Below, one piece after another: positions 5,821 through 58,211 of a stretch of 64,000 nucleotides of DNA. Positions within the stretch are counted from its first letter, which is position 1. Each line of letters opens with the position of its first letter. The stretch lies in NCBI GenBank assembly GCA_000690595.2, contig JHUT02000001.1:372001-436000 (forward strand). Reading direction: 5' to 3'. The notes below the pieces were generated by a model. That model had not been told where the DNA came from and ran no database searches. It saw only the letters and a list, made by a program, of their open reading frames with translations. A program made the position numbers and the translations under genes. This DNA is from Natrinema mahii. GTDB taxonomy: Archaea > Halobacteriota > Halobacteria > Halobacteriales > Natrialbaceae.

Positions 5821-5953
5821 GCCTGGACGGTTGGTTCTGTGGGGCGATCACCGCCTCGAGTCGTCGTGAGCGGACAAGCGCCCTCGCGTCTGCACCCGAC
5901 TGCGAGCAACGGCGTCCACAACAGTGATCCGACCGCGGGGCACTCGTAGGAGT

Positions 5954-7120
5954 ATGGACGACGACCACGACCGTCGGATCGAGACCAGATCCATCCACGC
6001 CGGTCAGGAACCCGATTCCGACACGGGCGCACTGATGACGCCGATTCACGCGAACTCCACGTATAAGCAGGACGCCCCGGGGGACCACCGCGGCTACGAG
6101 TACTCCCGCACCGGGAACCCCACGCGCACCGATCTCGAGGAAAACCTCGCGAGCCTCGAGAACGCCGAGTACGGCCGGGCCTTCGCCAGCGGGATGGCCG
6201 CGATCAACACCGTCCTGAACCTGCTCGAGGCCGGCGACCACGTCGTCACCGGCAACGACGTCTACGGCGGGACCCACCGCATCTTCACGCAGGTCTACGA
6301 GGACTACGACCTCGAGTTCTCCTTCGTCGATATGACCGACCTCGACGAGATCGAGGCCGCGTTCCGCGAGGAGACGGCACTGCTCTGGCTCGAGACGCCG
6401 ACGAATCCGCTCATGTCGATCGTCGACATCGCGGGGGCGGCCGAAATCGCCCACGACCACGACGCCCTGTGTGCGATCGACAACACGTTCGCGACGCCGT
6501 ATCTCCAGCGGCCGCTCGATCTGGGCGCGGACATCGTCTCCCACTCCCTGACGAAGTACCTCGGGGGCCACTCCGACGTCGTCGGCGGCGCCCTCCTGAC
6601 CAACGACGAGGCACTCGACGAGCGACTGGGCTTCTACCAGAACTCCGTCGGCGCGACGCCCGGCCCCTTCGAATCCTTCCTCGTCCTCCGGGGGACCAAG
6701 ACCCTCCCCGTCCGGATGGACCGACACTGCGAGAACGCGCGACAGATTGCGGAGTGGCTCGACGACCACCCCGACGTCGACCGGGTCTACTACCCCGGCC
6801 TCGAGTCCCATCCCGGCCACGAGATCGCCGCCGAGCAGATGGACGACTTCGGGGGCATGCTGAGCTTCGAACTCGATGCGAGCCTCGAGCAAGCGAGCGA
6901 CGTCGTCTCGAACACCGAGGTCTTCACGCTCGCGGAGAGCCTCGGCGGCGTCGAGAGCCTGATCGAACAGCCGGCGCCGATGACCCACGCCGCCATTCCG
7001 CGGGAGGAACGGCTCGCGGCCGGCCTCTCGGACAGCCTGATTCGCGTCTCGGTCGGAATCGAACACGTCGACGACCAGATCGCCGACCTCGAGGGCGCGA
7101 TCGACGCCGCGCTCGACTGA
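5954..7120 (+). CDS. Cystathionine gamma-synthase/lyase family PLP enzyme
   Basis: A 388-residue Cys/Met-metabolism PLP enzyme that catalyses gamma-replacement or gamma-elimination in trans-sulfuration. Family features in order are the N-terminal ETRSIHAGQEPD, the substrate-arm segment YEYSRTGNPTR, the phosphate-binding ASGMAAI, the cofactor aspartate in CAIDNTFATPYLQRP, and the Schiff-base lysine in SHSLTKYLGGHSD (about residue 201). SLGGVESLIEQPAPMTHA near the C-terminus is also typical. Synthase, lyase and O-acetylhomoserine sulfhydrylase activities cannot be separated from sequence alone. I chose the ATG at 5954 because the conserved region starts there; an in-frame start 30 bases upstream is possible. 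Confidence 0.9.
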   Translation: MDDDHDRRIETRSIHAGQEPDSDTGALMTPIHANSTYKQDAPGDHRGYEYSRTGNPTRTDLEENLASLENAEYGRAFASGMAAINTVLNLLEAGDHVVTGNDVYGGTHRIFTQVYEDYDLEFSFVDMTDLDEIEAAFREETALLWLETPTNPLMSIVDIAGAAEIAHDHDALCAIDNTFATPYLQRPLDLGADIVSHSLTKYLGGHSDVVGGALLTNDEALDERLGFYQNSVGATPGPFESFLVLRGTKTLPVRMDRHCENARQIAEWLDDHPDVDRVYYPGLESHPGHEIAAEQMDDFGGMLSFELDASLEQASDVVSNTEVFTLAESLGGVESLIEQPAPMTHAAIPREERLAAGLSDSLIRVSVGIEHVDDQIADLEGAIDAALD

Positions 7121-7289: not shown

Positions 7290-8279
7290 CTAGGTCCCTC
7301 GCGCGAGTTGCGAGCGAAAGATCGGCTCGAACCCCTCGAGGTAGGCGCGCGCGTCGAACGACTCGGCGTCGCCGCAGGCGTCGAGCGCGGTCTCGAACTC
7401 GCGGTCCCACCGTTCGACGAAGGCGGTCTCGATGCCGGACTCGCGGATCCGCTCGATCGCGGGCGCGACGGCCGCGTCGGTCGGCTCGTCCCGGATCGCC
7501 CGAAGCTCCGCGGGCGAGACGATCCCGGACTCGAGGGCCCGGACGGCGACGCCGGAGCTGTAATCCCCCTCGGCGAGTTCTCGCTCCCAGGTGGCGAGCC
7601 AGTTGCCGATCCGGGCCATCCGCTGGCCGTGAGCGACGACGGTCCGGAGCGTCGCGAGGTCGCACGGATCGAACGCGCTCGCGTTGGCGATATCGATGTC
7701 GGCGAACGGGAAGAGCATCATGTTGTAGACGTCGTAGGTCAGGAGTTCGCGCTCGCTCGCGAGGCCGGGATGGCGGGCCAGCAGCGCCGAGTAGTCGACC
7801 GACTGCAGCGCCTGCCGAACGTCGAACCGGAACAGGGCCCCGAACTCCTCGGCGCGCGGACCCGCCCGAAACTGCTCGCAGAGCGCGTCCCAGAGGTCCT
7901 GCTGGAACCGGACGTAGTCGCCGTCGACACCCGCTCGCGTCGGATCGGCCGCCTGGCCGTCGAACGGCACGAGGCGGAGTTCCTCGAGGGTCGCGCGGTC
8001 GCCGTGGCGTTCGGCGACGTCGTCGATGACCGTGATGAACATCGTCGCGAGGACCTTCGCGTCGTGGACGCGCTGGCCGGCTCCGTCGTCGACACAGGAC
8101 AGTCGGAACGCCGGTTCGACCGCGTCGAACCACAGCCACGTCGACCGGTCACGGTCGCCGATCCGCTCGTCGTAGGCGTCGGCCAGCGGCCGAATCGTCT
8201 CCGAAAGGGTCCGCTGTGGCGCGTTCGAGAACGGGTCCGATTCGACCTCGAGAGCGGACGCCATCGTCTCTCGTGACAT
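7290..8279 (-). CDS. Putative class I terpene-synthase-fold protein
   Basis: A 329-residue, all-helical, soluble protein. Three positions fit the class I terpene synthase plan: an aspartate-rich DDVAE at 86-90, an arginine (R177, in SERELLTYDVY) where the diphosphate-sensing arginine is expected, and an NSE-like triad N226-x3-T230-x3-E234 in NWLATWERE. The 140-residue distance between the two metal motifs and the total length match bacterial cyclases. A clear C-terminal RY motif was not found. By family knowledge such enzymes ionise prenyl diphosphates with Mg2+; substrate and product are unknown. The ATG at 8279 is favoured over the GTG at 8288 because a TATA-like element lies about 28 bases upstream. 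Confidence 0.62.
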   Translation of the reverse strand: MSRETMASALEVESDPFSNAPQRTLSETIRPLADAYDERIGDRDRSTWLWFDAVEPAFRLSCVDDGAGQRVHDAKVLATMFITVIDDVAERHGDRATLEELRLVPFDGQAADPTRAGVDGDYVRFQQDLWDALCEQFRAGPRAEEFGALFRFDVRQALQSVDYSALLARHPGLASERELLTYDVYNMMLFPFADIDIANASAFDPCDLATLRTVVAHGQRMARIGNWLATWERELAEGDYSSGVAVRALESGIVSPAELRAIRDEPTDAAVAPAIERIRESGIETAFVERWDREFETALDACGDAESFDARAYLEGFEPIFRSQLARGT

Positions 8280-8303: not shown

Positions 8304-8341
8304 GAAATATTTTATTGCTAATTATTGCTAATTAGAATTTA
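8304..8341. promoter_or_regulatory. Divergent AT-rich promoter with tandem 10-bp repeat
   Basis: This short AT-rich block separates the terpene-synthase-like gene (minus) from the MBL gene (plus). It contains TTATTGCTAA twice in direct tandem (8312-8321 and 8322-8331) and a minus-strand TATA-like TAAAATATTT. The one-helical-turn spacing suggests a protein-binding site. Confidence 0.5.
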
Positions 8342-53958: not shown

Positions 53959-54326
53959 CGCATCCCCTCCCACATCCGGGTGAACTTGTCGGCGACGTCT
54001 TCCTCGCGATACGTCAACTCGAGTTCGAACGATCCGTCCTCCAAGGACAGTTCGAGCTGGTCGAGGTTCGCACTATAGACGCTGTAGTGGTTGCCATCGG
54101 GTGCGAGTTCGGTCTCCTCGGTAACGAGGCGACACTCCTCGAGGCGATCGAGTCGTCGATAGATCGTCGGGAGGGAGGCATCACACCGTTCGCTCAGGGT
54201 ACTAGCAGACATGGGTTCGACGCTCGTGTGGGTGAGGATGTCCCGTGCGTACTCGTCGTCGAGAACCGAAAGCAGGGTCGACAGGTCAGTTTCCTCACTC
54301 ACTGGTATGGCAGTTCCTTCCGCCAT
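53955..54326 (-). CDS. Winged-helix (ArsR-like) transcriptional regulator
   Basis: A 123-residue regulator with a winged helix at about 12-80: LSVLDDEYARDILTHTSVEP, then MSASTLSERCDASLPTIYRR as helix-turn-helix and VTEETELAPDGNHYSVYSA as wing. The C-terminus (ELTYREEDVADKFTRMWEGM) is a dimerisation-like tail. It is coupled to the membrane protein downstream. An inverted repeat directly upstream (54346-54365) may be its own operator. Confidence 0.85.
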   Translation of the reverse strand: MAEGTAIPVSEETDLSTLLSVLDDEYARDILTHTSVEPMSASTLSERCDASLPTIYRRLDRLEECRLVTEETELAPDGNHYSVYSANLDQLELSLEDGSFELELTYREEDVADKFTRMWEGMR

Positions 54327-54345
54327 GGCTATCAAAAGCGGTCCG

Positions 54346-54365
54346 GTTTTTCTGGGTGAGAAAAC
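54346..54365. promoter_or_regulatory. Inverted repeat ahead of the HTH gene
   Basis: GTTTTTCT-GGGTG-AGAAAAC is an inverted repeat 20-40 bases before the HTH start, where the TATA region should be. The position suits autorepression. The remaining gap to 54669 (343 bases in all) is AT-rich and holds the kinase promoter but no supported gene. Confidence 0.4.
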
Positions 54366-54627
54366 ACTCCATCGTCGAACCCTCGCAGGGACCGGGGCAT
54401 ACGGGAGCCGAACGGATCGGGACGGGGTGGCAACACGACTGAGCAATCGCCCTCGAGGCCGAAACGGGGATCGGATGCCAACTGGCAGTCAGCACCCGTG
54501 TCTGGCATTCATATAGGTCTCCCGACAATACGCCAGATACGTAATATTTCCTACCAAACCTATTATCTATGTATTTGTCAGTATATTTCTGTAATTATTT
54601 CAGGATTCTTGCGCAACCTAGGGAAAA

Positions 54628-54635
54628 TTTTTATC
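54628..54635 (+). promoter_or_regulatory. TATA box candidate for the histidine kinase gene
   Basis: TTTTTATC in an AT-rich stretch predicts initiation near 54657, a dozen bases ahead of the ATG at 54670 and downstream of an in-frame GTG at 54637. Confidence 0.45.
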
Positions 54636-54669
54636 GGTGCGGATCGTAACAGCTTGTAAAAACAGATTA

Positions 54670-56364
54670 ATGAGTCTGCTAAATTACACAACTGCAATAT
54701 TATTGTTATACTTGAGCGCTCTCCCTGCACTGTACAGCGCCTATACAGTATACGATAAGCGACGGAAACCGGCAATTCAATGGTTTATCGTCTTCATGAT
54801 CCTCGCGGCCGCATGGGCGTTCATCTACGCCACGATGAATCTAGTCACATCTGTCGAACTGACGTACGCGATCGCGAACGTGTTTTGGGCGGTCGTGACC
54901 GCGACTGGTGGGGCGTTCTTTCTCTTCGCCTACGAGTTCGCGTACAAGCAGCCGCTATCGAACAAGACTGCCGTCCTTTTTTTCGTGCCTGCGATCGTCC
55001 TCTTTGCGTTTAGTTGGAGTAATCCGGGCGATCTCGTCTACACTGCCGAGTACACCGTTGGTGACAACGGCGTCCTCCAAGTCGGGTTCCCACAGGGAAT
55101 CCTCTTCGTTAGTGCCGTCCAAGGGTACGGGTATCTGATGACGATCGCGAGTACTGCGCTTTTCTTCGCGGAATCTATCCACTCGAGCGGGAAGCACCGC
55201 CGACGGGCGGCGACGCTTACGCTCTTTTTTATGGGCGTTCTGGCCGCGACGACGCTAACCATCGTCGATTATCTTCCGCCGTACTACGATGGAACGTCGC
55301 TGTTGTACGGTTTCGCGGGCATCTACTTCGCCCACTCCGTGAACCGACACGGGTTTATGGAGTTCACGCCCGTCGCTCGAGACCAGGCGTTCGATGCGAT
55401 TAATGAAGCAGTCTTCATTGTTAACTCCGAACGGGAAATCATCGACGGGAACGATACTGCTGCCGAAACGTTCGATGTGGACCTGAACTCACGGGAACGT
55501 ATCGGAGACGTGCTGCCGACCGACGCTGATACTGGCGAAATTACGGAGTTGTTCTCCCGGACGGAGTTCGAGGAACGCAAGTACTACACAACCCGGACAC
55601 AGCCGTTTGCGTACGGTCGCGGGTTGGCCGGTGAACTCATCGTCGTCGGCGAGATCACGGAGCTCAAAGAACGAGAAAAAGAACTCGAACAGATCAAGGA
55701 CGTTCTACTCAGGTTCTTTCGGCACGATATCCGTACCTCGATGCAAATCATTCTCGGTCAGTCGGAAAGCCTTCAGAAGGATCTCCCGGACGAAAATAAA
55801 ACCGATTTGACCAACATCGTGAACACGTCCGAAGATGTCGTGAACAAAGCTCACAAGATACGACTCATTGACACTATCATCGGTGAAGACGAGACGGTCG
55901 TTGCCAACCTTCCGAGTGTTATCGAAGACGGCATACGGAAAGCCGACGTTCCCCCGGAGACAGCTATCGACGTTTCGATCGACGATGTCAACGTTCAGTG
56001 TCATTCGAAATTCGCCTTCGCGGTGGAGGAGTTGATCGAGAACGCGGTCGAACACCGCCGCCGGGACGAGCAGATTACTGTGACGCTTCGGACCGAAATG
56101 GCGGACGACTCCGTCGCGTTGTTCGTCGAAGATAACGGGAGCGGCATCCCGGAAAACGAACTCAACGTACTGAGACAGGAGGGGGAAACCCAACTGAGCC
56201 ATCTCAGCGGGATCGGACTCTGGATCGTGAAGTATCTGACCGAAAAGGCAGACGGCGTTTTCGAGTGCAGAAACCAGGGCGATGGGGGAGCGCAGATTCT
56301 GATTACCCTTCCCGTTTCCGCCGAGTCCGAGACGGAGCCAGCCGAGACCGCTTCGGACAGATAG
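54670..56364 (+). CDS. Membrane sensor histidine kinase (7TM-PAS-HATPase)
   Basis: A 564-residue kinase. Residues 1-230 hold seven membrane helices of the 7TM histidine-kinase N-terminal type, 235-335 a PAS-like domain (AFDAINEAVFIVNSEREIID), then a phospho-acceptor helix FRHDIRTSMQIILGQSESL with H352, and the ATPase with EELIENAVEH, VEDNGSGIPE and GIGLWIVKYL. It autophosphorylates and passes phosphate to a response regulator, none of which is encoded nearby. Codons rich in A/T (TTA, ATA, AAT) differ from the neighbours. The ATG at 54670 is preferred over the GTG at 54637 on promoter spacing. Confidence 0.87.
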   Translation: MSLLNYTTAILLLYLSALPALYSAYTVYDKRRKPAIQWFIVFMILAAAWAFIYATMNLVTSVELTYAIANVFWAVVTATGGAFFLFAYEFAYKQPLSNKTAVLFFVPAIVLFAFSWSNPGDLVYTAEYTVGDNGVLQVGFPQGILFVSAVQGYGYLMTIASTALFFAESIHSSGKHRRRAATLTLFFMGVLAATTLTIVDYLPPYYDGTSLLYGFAGIYFAHSVNRHGFMEFTPVARDQAFDAINEAVFIVNSEREIIDGNDTAAETFDVDLNSRERIGDVLPTDADTGEITELFSRTEFEERKYYTTRTQPFAYGRGLAGELIVVGEITELKEREKELEQIKDVLLRFFRHDIRTSMQIILGQSESLQKDLPDENKTDLTNIVNTSEDVVNKAHKIRLIDTIIGEDETVVANLPSVIEDGIRKADVPPETAIDVSIDDVNVQCHSKFAFAVEELIENAVEHRRRDEQITVTLRTEMADDSVALFVEDNGSGIPENELNVLRQEGETQLSHLSGIGLWIVKYLTEKADGVFECRNQGDGGAQILITLPVSAESETEPAETASDR

Positions 56365-56405
56365 GTATTCGTTTGTTGTATTTTTCGACCGCGTCCCCTA
56401 GATAT

Positions 56406-56415
56406 CTTTTTATCC
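56406..56415 (+). promoter_or_regulatory. TATA box for the UbiA-like gene
   Basis: CTTTTTATCC lies about 55 bases before the ATG at 56465, predicting its own short-leader transcript separate from the kinase gene. Confidence 0.5.
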
Positions 56416-56464
56416 ACCCGCCATCCGAAAAGTTAAATTGCTGTAATCTCTCCGTACCGATACT

Positions 56465-57268
56465 ATGGATACGCGAACCGTTCATACCACTCTCCTACTG
56501 AATATCTGGCTCTGCATCGGAGCTGGCTTGCTGGTGATCATAACCGCACTAACGCTCGATGTCTCACTTTCGGCGATCGGTGTTGGATTACTTCTCCCCG
56601 CACTGGGCATCTACTTCATCTACGTCGAAGACCGGCGGCAGATCAGTCCAGAAGACCGAATCAATAGCACGTACAGGACAGCACTTGTCGAACGATTCGA
56701 CGAGCCATTGCGCTATACGAGCCTCGCTAGTCTCGTCGTCTATCAGGCCATCACTCTCTATTTTGCGATCGATCTTCCAGCGACGTCTCAGACGGTACTA
56801 GCGCTTCTCATCGCGCAACTGCCGTTGGTATTCGTCTATACGTATGACTATTCGAAGCGCTACCCTCTCATCGACTCCGCATACGTCGCAGTGGTCTGGG
56901 CAGTGCTGATTTCGTTTCCGATATTCCTCACCACGGCTCACCGGATCACTGTCTCGACGGTGGCGGTGTTCGTGGCCTGGTTCGCCATCATCTTTGCAGG
57001 AGTCGAGTCTAGAAATATAAGCGACGTCGCCGGAGATAACGAGGTAGATCGGGCGACTGTCGCGTCTATTCTCGGTCCGAAACGGACCGAATATCTGGTG
57101 GTAGCGTTAAAAGTCTCCGGACTAAGCCTCATCTATGGGTTCGGCGGAGCGCTCCCGGCACTCCTCACGGGCCTGTATCTGTTGTACTTGTCCCTGTTCC
57201 GCGAGCTGACACGGAGTATCACCCCACCGCAGGAGTACTCCCCCGATGATCTCTCGAAAAGAGACTGA
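56465..57268 (+). CDS. UbiA-like prenyltransferase family membrane protein
   Basis: A 267-residue membrane protein with eight to nine helices. The region IYVEDRRQISPEDRINSTYR (52-71) sits where UbiA enzymes carry the first Asp-rich motif, and ESRNISDVAGDNEVDRATVA with SILG (181-204) matches the second (D..GD...D). UbiA proteins attach prenyl chains to aromatic or lipid acceptors using Mg2+. The first motif deviates from NDxxDxxxD, so the substrate, and even activity, are open. It shares the low-GC character of the adjacent kinase gene. Confidence 0.65.
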   Translation: MDTRTVHTTLLLNIWLCIGAGLLVIITALTLDVSLSAIGVGLLLPALGIYFIYVEDRRQISPEDRINSTYRTALVERFDEPLRYTSLASLVVYQAITLYFAIDLPATSQTVLALLIAQLPLVFVYTYDYSKRYPLIDSAYVAVVWAVLISFPIFLTTAHRITVSTVAVFVAWFAIIFAGVESRNISDVAGDNEVDRATVASILGPKRTEYLVVALKVSGLSLIYGFGGALPALLTGLYLLYLSLFRELTRSITPPQEYSPDDLSKRD

Positions 57269-57418
57269 CGCGCTGAAGAGAATCGGTCGACTCTCACGTT
57301 CTGGAACCGCTCAGCCGGAATGGCCCGTCTGACGCCGTCCAGAAACGCATGTAGACGGGTGATATCGATACCGTCACCAGTTATCCGAACTCACGCCCAC
57401 GTACTCCAAGGAGCGATA

Positions 57419-57432
57419 TTCGATATATCGAA
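57419..57432. promoter_or_regulatory. Perfect 14-bp palindrome between convergent genes
   Basis: TTCGATATATCGAA is a perfect palindrome at the right border of the AT-rich segment, between two convergent gene ends. It might be a protein-binding or recombination site; the sequence does not decide. Confidence 0.35.
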
Positions 57433-57464
57433 ATTAGGTTTATTTCTCGGGGAGTGGGTCTGCG

Positions 57465-58211
57465 CTACCCCCGTTCGCCATCGACCCACGCGAGCCAGTC
57501 GAACAGCCGCTCGCGTAGTCGGTCCTCGGCCGCGCGCGAGAAGCGATGGCCCTCGCCCGCGAACCGCTCGAGGAGGACGTCGGTCTCGAGTCGCCGAGCG
57601 GCCGCGAAGCTGTCGGCGGGATCGACGACGTCGTCAGCCCCGCCGTGGAAGATCGCGACCGGGACCGCAAGCGATGCGACGACATCGTCGAAGGGGTGGC
57701 GATCCAGTGCCTCGAGAAACCGGCGGTCGATCCGTTCGCCGGTCTCGAACTGCACCGCCCCGTCGCGATCGATGGTGTCCCGATAGTCGTCGAACGTATC
57801 GGTAGTCGTCACGGGCGCGCGCGTCGCGACCGCCCGCGCCCGGTCGTCCGTCGCGGCGGCGTGGAAGGCCATTTTCCCGCCGAAACTCGAGCCAAAGAGG
57901 ACGTACGAGTCCGGGTCGAAGTACTCGATGACGGCCCGGAGGTCGGCCAGCCGGGCCTCGAGGGTGGCATCGACGAACGCGCCGTCGGACTCGCCACAGC
58001 CTCGGCAGTCGAACCGAACGGCGTTGTACCCCTCCCTGACTGCCCGCCGACACCGACCCTCGTAGCTTCCGGACTTGTCGCTGCGAAGGCCGTGACAGAA
58101 GACCAGCCAGTCGTCCGAGTCGGCCTCGTGGTGAACCGCGGCGACCTCGGGGGGCGACCCCGTCGCCGTCGCCGTTGCCGTTTCGATCGGGATCCTGTGT
58201 GCATCCGGCAT
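57465..58211 (-). CDS. Alpha/beta hydrolase
   Basis: A 248-residue alpha/beta-hydrolase of the serine aminopeptidase/lysophospholipase-like type. FCHGLRSDKSG supplies the oxyanion loop, GSSFGGKMAFHAA the nucleophile serine elbow (about residue 110), IFHGGADDVVDP the acid, and AGEGHRFS the histidine. It is cytoplasmic, with no signal peptide. The substrate is not predictable. High-GC codon use resumes here after the AT-rich segment. Confidence 0.88.
   Translation of the reverse strand: MPDAHRIPIETATATATGSPPEVAAVHHEADSDDWLVFCHGLRSDKSGSYEGRCRRAVREGYNAVRFDCRGCGESDGAFVDATLEARLADLRAVIEYFDPDSYVLFGSSFGGKMAFHAAATDDRARAVATRAPVTTTDTFDDYRDTIDRDGAVQFETGERIDRRFLEALDRHPFDDVVASLAVPVAIFHGGADDVVDPADSFAAARRLETDVLLERFAGEGHRFSRAAEDRLRERLFDWLAWVDGERG

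Follow-up and report, generated by a model that had tools for sequence, protein, structure and literature searches.

Does a haloarchaeal gene whose product carries the two metal motifs of class I terpene synthases encode such an enzyme, and what would that enzyme make? Haloarchaea depend on isoprenoid chemistry for their ether lipids, carotenoids and retinal, and in the literature searched cyclic terpenes beyond carotenoid chemistry are hardly described in them. antiSMASH "terpene" clusters have been reported in haloarchaea (PMC8600319), without an established link to the synthase family described here, and in the literature searched such clusters are in silico predictions only. The same literature yielded no paper on the archaeal family itself; the work of Samusevich et al. 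(bioRxiv 2024.01.29.577750, title in PMC12797696) concerns, by its title, terpenoid biosynthesis in archaea. An earlier note had read the gene at 7290-8279 as terpene-synthase-like or otherwise prenyl-diphosphate-using, a reading to which the profile matches, motif conservation and superfamily-level fold matches presented below lend support.

The gene, its neighbours and its relatives

The gene lies in a window of 64,000 nucleotides, the whole stretch of DNA that was analysed, from a haloarchaeal genome of 3.79 Mb whose nearest named relatives are Natrinema. The gene and its two flanking genes are as follows.

7290..8279, minus strand: terpene-synthase-family gene, ATG at 8279, stop at 7290-7292, 329 residues, assigned from its open frame, its orthologues and PF19086
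8325..9086, plus strand: metallo-beta-lactamase-fold hydrolase, divergent neighbour (PF00753, E 6.9e-29)
5924..7120, plus strand: Cys/Met-metabolism PLP enzyme, convergent neighbour (PF01053, E 6e-154)

The open frame of 329 residues plus stop, for which the earlier note gave no strand, is intact and runs on the minus strand, with a GTG 9 bases upstream of the ATG. Of 61 relatives, 27 have orthologues with open frames (30-91% identity), and a tree groups the window protein with Natrinema. The dN/dS values, calculated against six relatives, were 0.24-0.37, from which we judge that the gene is under purifying selection. Since orthologues exist in Natrinema and beyond and dN/dS falls in this range, the frame is taken to be a real gene.

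An AT-rich tract at ∼8305-8340 separates the synthase-family gene from the divergent hydrolase gene, for which a TTG upstream start is listed and ATG 8400 may be the true start. The hydrolase gene adjoins the synthase gene in 15 Natrialbaceae loci of those compared and the PLP enzyme gene lies near it in 10 loci; we treat both flanking genes as context only. Genes for a DUF655 protein and an EF1 exchange-domain protein, among others, are found farther away. By the Pfam annotation of its neighbours, the window copy has no isoprenoid gene beside it, and a terpene gene cluster around it was sought among its own neighbours and in the loci of relatives, with none found. Elsewhere in the window, positions 54001-58000 have a G+C content of 0.54-0.59 against ∼0.67 in their surroundings and hold a sensor histidine kinase-like frame (54637-56364) and a membrane protein gene (56465-57268); this tract is possibly acquired DNA.

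The family is present in 87 of 292 haloarchaeal genomes, covering 35 of the 77 genera of the class. Outside the class, full-length-looking members were found in two genomes (G333 and G559) and in 7 of the 12 genomes of a second family, and distant, partial or degraded members in four more (G438, G446, G448 and G401); from phylum, genome size and G+C we infer that these carriers are methanogens. No relatives were detected in viral contigs. In one low-GC locus, probably from a methanogen (L144:7160-8554), the synthase gene is divergent from a gene for a membrane protein of DUF92, which we take to be the family of the plant phytyl-phosphate kinase VTE6.

The neighbourhoods of relatives were clustered with a filter on acidic composition. 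A genome of the same genus carries a paralogue, 38-41% identical to the window protein, in a locus (L090, 274-12262) that also encodes SnoaL, a P450, UbiA, an FAD oxidoreductase, an O-methyltransferase, a class III aminotransferase and an alpha/beta hydrolase, and that, from its gene content, looks like a terpenoid biosynthetic cluster. P450 genes are also found near the sister loci L120 and L121. Because P450 genes are common in the class (254 of 292 haloarchaeal genomes), finding them close by at a few loci is suggestive without being conclusive.

Regulatory genes were observed at other loci. PAS/GAF/BAT/HTH_10 regulators, resembling the bacterio-opsin activator, were seen in the vicinity of family members at roughly twelve haloarchaeal loci (L091, L096, L101, L102, L103, L105, L106, L109, L115, L117, L138 and L139), HVO_A0261/FilR1-type regulators in approximately nine loci and PAS histidine kinases in two (L144 and L149). 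These are counts without a background rate, and much of the proximity may be inherited synteny.

Metal motifs, profile matches and predicted fold

Conservation was counted in an alignment of 66 family members, numbered as the 329-residue window protein. The codons of the two motifs and of two further invariant residues are positioned as follows.

8010..8024, minus strand: D86-D87-V-A-E90, aspartate-rich DDxxD/E metal motif
7692..7694, minus strand: D196, invariant (66/66)
7644..7646, minus strand: R212, invariant (66/66)
7578..7604, minus strand: N226-W-L-A-T230-W-E-R233-E234, NSE/DTE-type metal motif

In class I synthases, a Mg cluster held on the DDxxD/E and NSE/DTE motifs binds the diphosphate of the substrate with the help of basic residues (PMC10563020). 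DDVAE at 86-90 and NWLATWERE at 226-234 are both present as the earlier note described them, with their starts 140 residues apart, and the motif residues proved to be conserved in the orthologues. D87 is found in all 66 members, D86 is aspartate in 62 of them and position 90 is glutamate or aspartate throughout; in the second motif N226, W227, W231, R233 and E234 are invariant, and position 230 is threonine or serine in 66/66. The remaining invariant columns are W48, W50, V63, D196, R212, R223 and D239, the basic ones in the whole set being R212, R223 and R233. In conservation the six metal positions average rank 16 of 329, a value matched by 1 of 100,000 random sextets. Judged by this alignment, the motif pair is real and near-invariant among the 66 relatives and is not due to chance. 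The second motif follows the pattern (N/D)xxx(S/T)xxxE, but W227 replaces the usual aspartate at +1, and together with W231 it forms an invariant hallmark of the family.

Two relatives depart from this picture. A distant member (L148:5998-6771) is devoid of the DDxxD and NSE residues, and decay or a pseudoenzyme is possible; another (L143:5920-7857) diverges from the family in its C-terminal part past residue ∼285, possibly through a frameshift.

A profile search against terpene synthase families, proposed in the earlier note, returned Terpene_syn_C_2 (PF19086), the family of bacterial and fungal class I synthases that includes germacradienol/geosmin, pentalenene and selinadiene synthases. The match spans residues 80-253 of the window protein at 20.9 bits (E 3.3e-4), under the curated cut-off of 23.7 bits. 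The same profile matches 26 of 27 close relatives (best E 5.7e-8) and 49 of 61 diverse family members, and the cut-off was passed by 5 of the 10 members that were scanned individually (L138, 32.6 bits; L132, 27.7; L124, 26.9; L089, 25.0; L096, 23.9). A PF19086 scan of the whole genome did not pick up the window copy, and no control genome was matched either. The window protein has no match among the NCBIfam models, and across the family there are just scattered matches at chance level; annotation pipelines call the family hypothetical because there is no NCBIfam model for it, and plasmid-borne copies are annotated as "hypothetical protein". The window protein and its relatives have the metal motifs, their spacing, the overall length and the profile match in common with PF19086 synthases. 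Unlike these, the archaeal family has no conserved arginine 46 residues before the NSE asparagine (N-46) and no C-terminal RY pair, and its W227 and W231 are invariant.

A second type of gene was observed in two haloarchaea. Plasmid genes of Actinarchaeum halophilum (L064:5500-6891) and Halocatena marina (L065:5485-6924), carry the annotation "hypothetical" or "SRPBCC". Each has a canonical terpene synthase domain at its end, and a polyprenyl synthetase gene comes directly after it. These SRPBCC-fused synthases resemble the window family in being haloarchaeal and having a terpene synthase domain, but they are of canonical bacterial type, with ∼27% identity to geosmin synthase, and they form a second, separate lineage of terpene synthases in haloarchaea.

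When a profile of 61 family members was searched against the PDB, only two matches were obtained up to E 10, Sat1646 (E 0.036) and Stt4548 (E 1.3), both of them crystallized actinobacterial class I diterpene synthases (PDB 7e4n/7e4o and 7e4m, respectively). The sequence similarity is marginal. The features in common are a DDxxD-type and an NSE-type motif, an arginine three residues before the NSE asparagine on helix H, an arginine ahead of the motif's final acidic residue, and then ..GD... The alignment places RLSND../RLGND.. over the RIGNW.. of the family, so that the two synthases have ND where the archaeal proteins have NW. They are more apt structural comparators than the pentalenene and selinadiene synthases suggested in the earlier note. 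A single-protein phmmer search of the PDB gave no match, and a 27-member profile, in which chance matches to manganese transporters ranked over Stt4548, was discarded and superseded by the 61-member one. Comparison of profiles by hhalign against 16 canonical synthases put both metal motifs in register (E 8.5e-4, probability 24%, and only 24-39% across comparisons), while the control against polyprenyl synthetases gave E 0.93.

An AF2 model was built on six sequences, the window protein and five close relatives. It places DDVAE near the C-terminal end of a helix (67-92) and the NSE motif within another (205-236), as a class I synthase would lead one to expect. All 50 of the Foldseek matches listed for this weak model are of the class I isoprenoid fold, prenyl diphosphate synthases first, at E 0.02 or worse and none below E 0.001. 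The 50 matches listed by VIA-align (Z ≤ 9.4) consist of prenyl diphosphate synthases and related enzymes of the class I isoprenoid group, aristolochene synthase among them, and the absence of other families among these matches carries no meaning. A fold without relation to class I synthases, which the earlier note had named as a refutation, did not emerge, though the model is of low confidence (pLDDT 53.5, pTM 0.43). These matches support membership in the class I isoprenoid superfamily, and they specify neither the subfamily nor the geometry of the cavity.

A candidate diphosphate sensor

Three sites were considered for the sensing of the substrate diphosphate, with codons as follows.

7749..7751, minus strand: R177, conservation rank 280 of 329
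7719..7724, minus strand: N186-M187, candidate linker and effector at the helix-G break, by position only
7611..7613, minus strand: R223, in the helix of the NSE motif (N minus 3), put forward as diphosphate sensor

R177, which had been put forward in the earlier note as a class I hallmark, is arginine in only 15 of the 66 members, so it is no functional hallmark, and we rejected it as the sensor in favour of R223. A sensor arginine at N-46, its place on helix G in canonical bacterial synthases, was likewise rejected, as this position varies in the family and is invariant in the control alignment. The C-terminal RY pair, which the earlier note had rightly found missing, is absent from the window protein and present in 14 of 15 controls.

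In Sat1646 the sensor Arg220 lies on helix H, three positions ahead of the NSE Asn223, and the linker Asn182 and the effector Tyr183 are at N minus 41 and N minus 40; Arg236 of Stt4548 is placed likewise on helix H (PMC9814573). R223 occupies the position of both arginines and is conserved in 66/66 family members, while 0 of the 15 canonical synthases used as controls have an arginine at N minus 3. N186 (58/66) and M187 (60/66) lie at N-40 and N-39, adjoining the linker and effector positions of Sat1646. Given the invariance of R223, the lack of a conserved N-46 arginine and the placement of N186 and M187, a sensor on helix H is the best-supported proposal, and by analogy with the two actinobacterial enzymes R223 is likely to fill this role. 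R223 and R233, the basic residues predicted to bind diphosphate, are both plausibly positioned.

Substrate, product and alternative roles

Taken together, the motifs and the profile matches make it very likely that the protein carries out the metal and diphosphate chemistry of class I terpene synthases, and we predict that the gene probably encodes such a synthase, belonging to a divergent archaeal clade. The purifying selection, the paralogue in the L090 locus and the polyprenyl synthetase genes of the genome also favour this reading. Counting against it are the sub-threshold score of the window copy and its absence from the whole-genome PF19086 scan, the low hhalign probability, the weak model with prenyl diphosphate synthases as its best matches, NW in place of ND, the missing helix-G arginine and RY pair, and the lack of flanking isoprenoid genes. 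The diphosphate of a prenyl substrate would be bound by a Mg2+ cluster held on D86, D87 and E90 together with N226, T230 and E234. R223, in the helix of the NSE motif, would sense and grip this group together with R233, probably by way of the helix-G break residues N186 and M187. Ionisation would then give an allylic cation, which the enzyme would fold into a terpene, most likely a cyclic one; the prediction of a cyclic product is favoured, with less assurance than the assignment of the enzyme class.

The genome encodes three polyprenyl synthetases and two proteins of the squalene/phytoene synthase family, and no class II cyclase of the squalene-hopene (SQHop) type was found in it. Among the 292 haloarchaeal genomes, SQHop gave only two partial N-domain matches, each ∼100 residues long, whereas the synthase family is present in 87 of these genomes. 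Because haloarchaea have practically no SQHop-type class II cyclases, the substrate is likely to be a linear prenyl diphosphate. From what is generally known of haloarchaeal lipids, GGPP (C20) is the likeliest of these, and FPP or a C25 diphosphate is possible; whether GGPP is the main substrate we consider evenly balanced.

The metal motifs indicate diphosphate ionisation and not ring formation, and the protein could instead be a non-cyclising enzyme of the class I fold that uses a prenyl diphosphate, releasing an acyclic alcohol or alkene or transferring the prenyl group to an acceptor. Prenyl diphosphate synthases do lead the structural matches among those listed, and one gene among the canonical control relatives is annotated as an R-linalool synthase, with an acyclic product. 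The second motif, however, is of the NSE type found in terpene synthases, where prenyl diphosphate synthases have another Asp-rich motif, and the best profile matches are cyclases, which leaves this alternative unlikely. A copalyl diphosphate-type enzyme, supplied with a bicyclic substrate by a class II cyclase, is suggested by Sat1646 and Stt4548, which use copalyl diphosphate, are the nearest solved relatives by profile and have the helix-H sensor position in common with the family. We regard it as improbable in view of the SQHop results, even if a class II enzyme from another family is conceivable. A non-catalytic or regulatory relative that has retained the fold would be in keeping with the PAS/GAF/BAT or HTH regulators that often adjoin family members and with the distant member lacking the motifs, but few columns of the family alignment are as conserved as the catalytic positions, and such a role is thus very improbable. 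A trans-prenyl diphosphate or squalene/phytoene synthase would have the superfamily fold in common, but it is largely refuted by the motif set, since the window protein does not have the two Asp-rich motifs, gives no PF00348 or PF00494 match at E up to 10 and comes from a genome with separate true members of both families.

A broader picture can be sketched, which as a whole we hold only tentatively and consider rather doubtful. It combines a native archaeal lineage of terpene synthases, present in roughly one in three haloarchaeal genomes and in some methanogens, and marked by NWxxTWxRE and the helix-H sensor arginine; control of the family in several lineages by BAT and PAS regulators of the light/oxygen type; and cyclic di- or sesterterpenes not yet known from archaea, which in some strains would be tailored further by P450s. 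Many haloarchaea and a few methanogens may, going by their gene content, make cyclic terpenes that have not yet been looked for. If true, a whole archaeal class would have natural products, or terpenoids of membranes and signalling, that have so far gone unseen, and the invariant W227 and W231 together with the helix-H sensor would offer sharp, mutable predictions of how diphosphate may be gripped without the usual bacterial residues.
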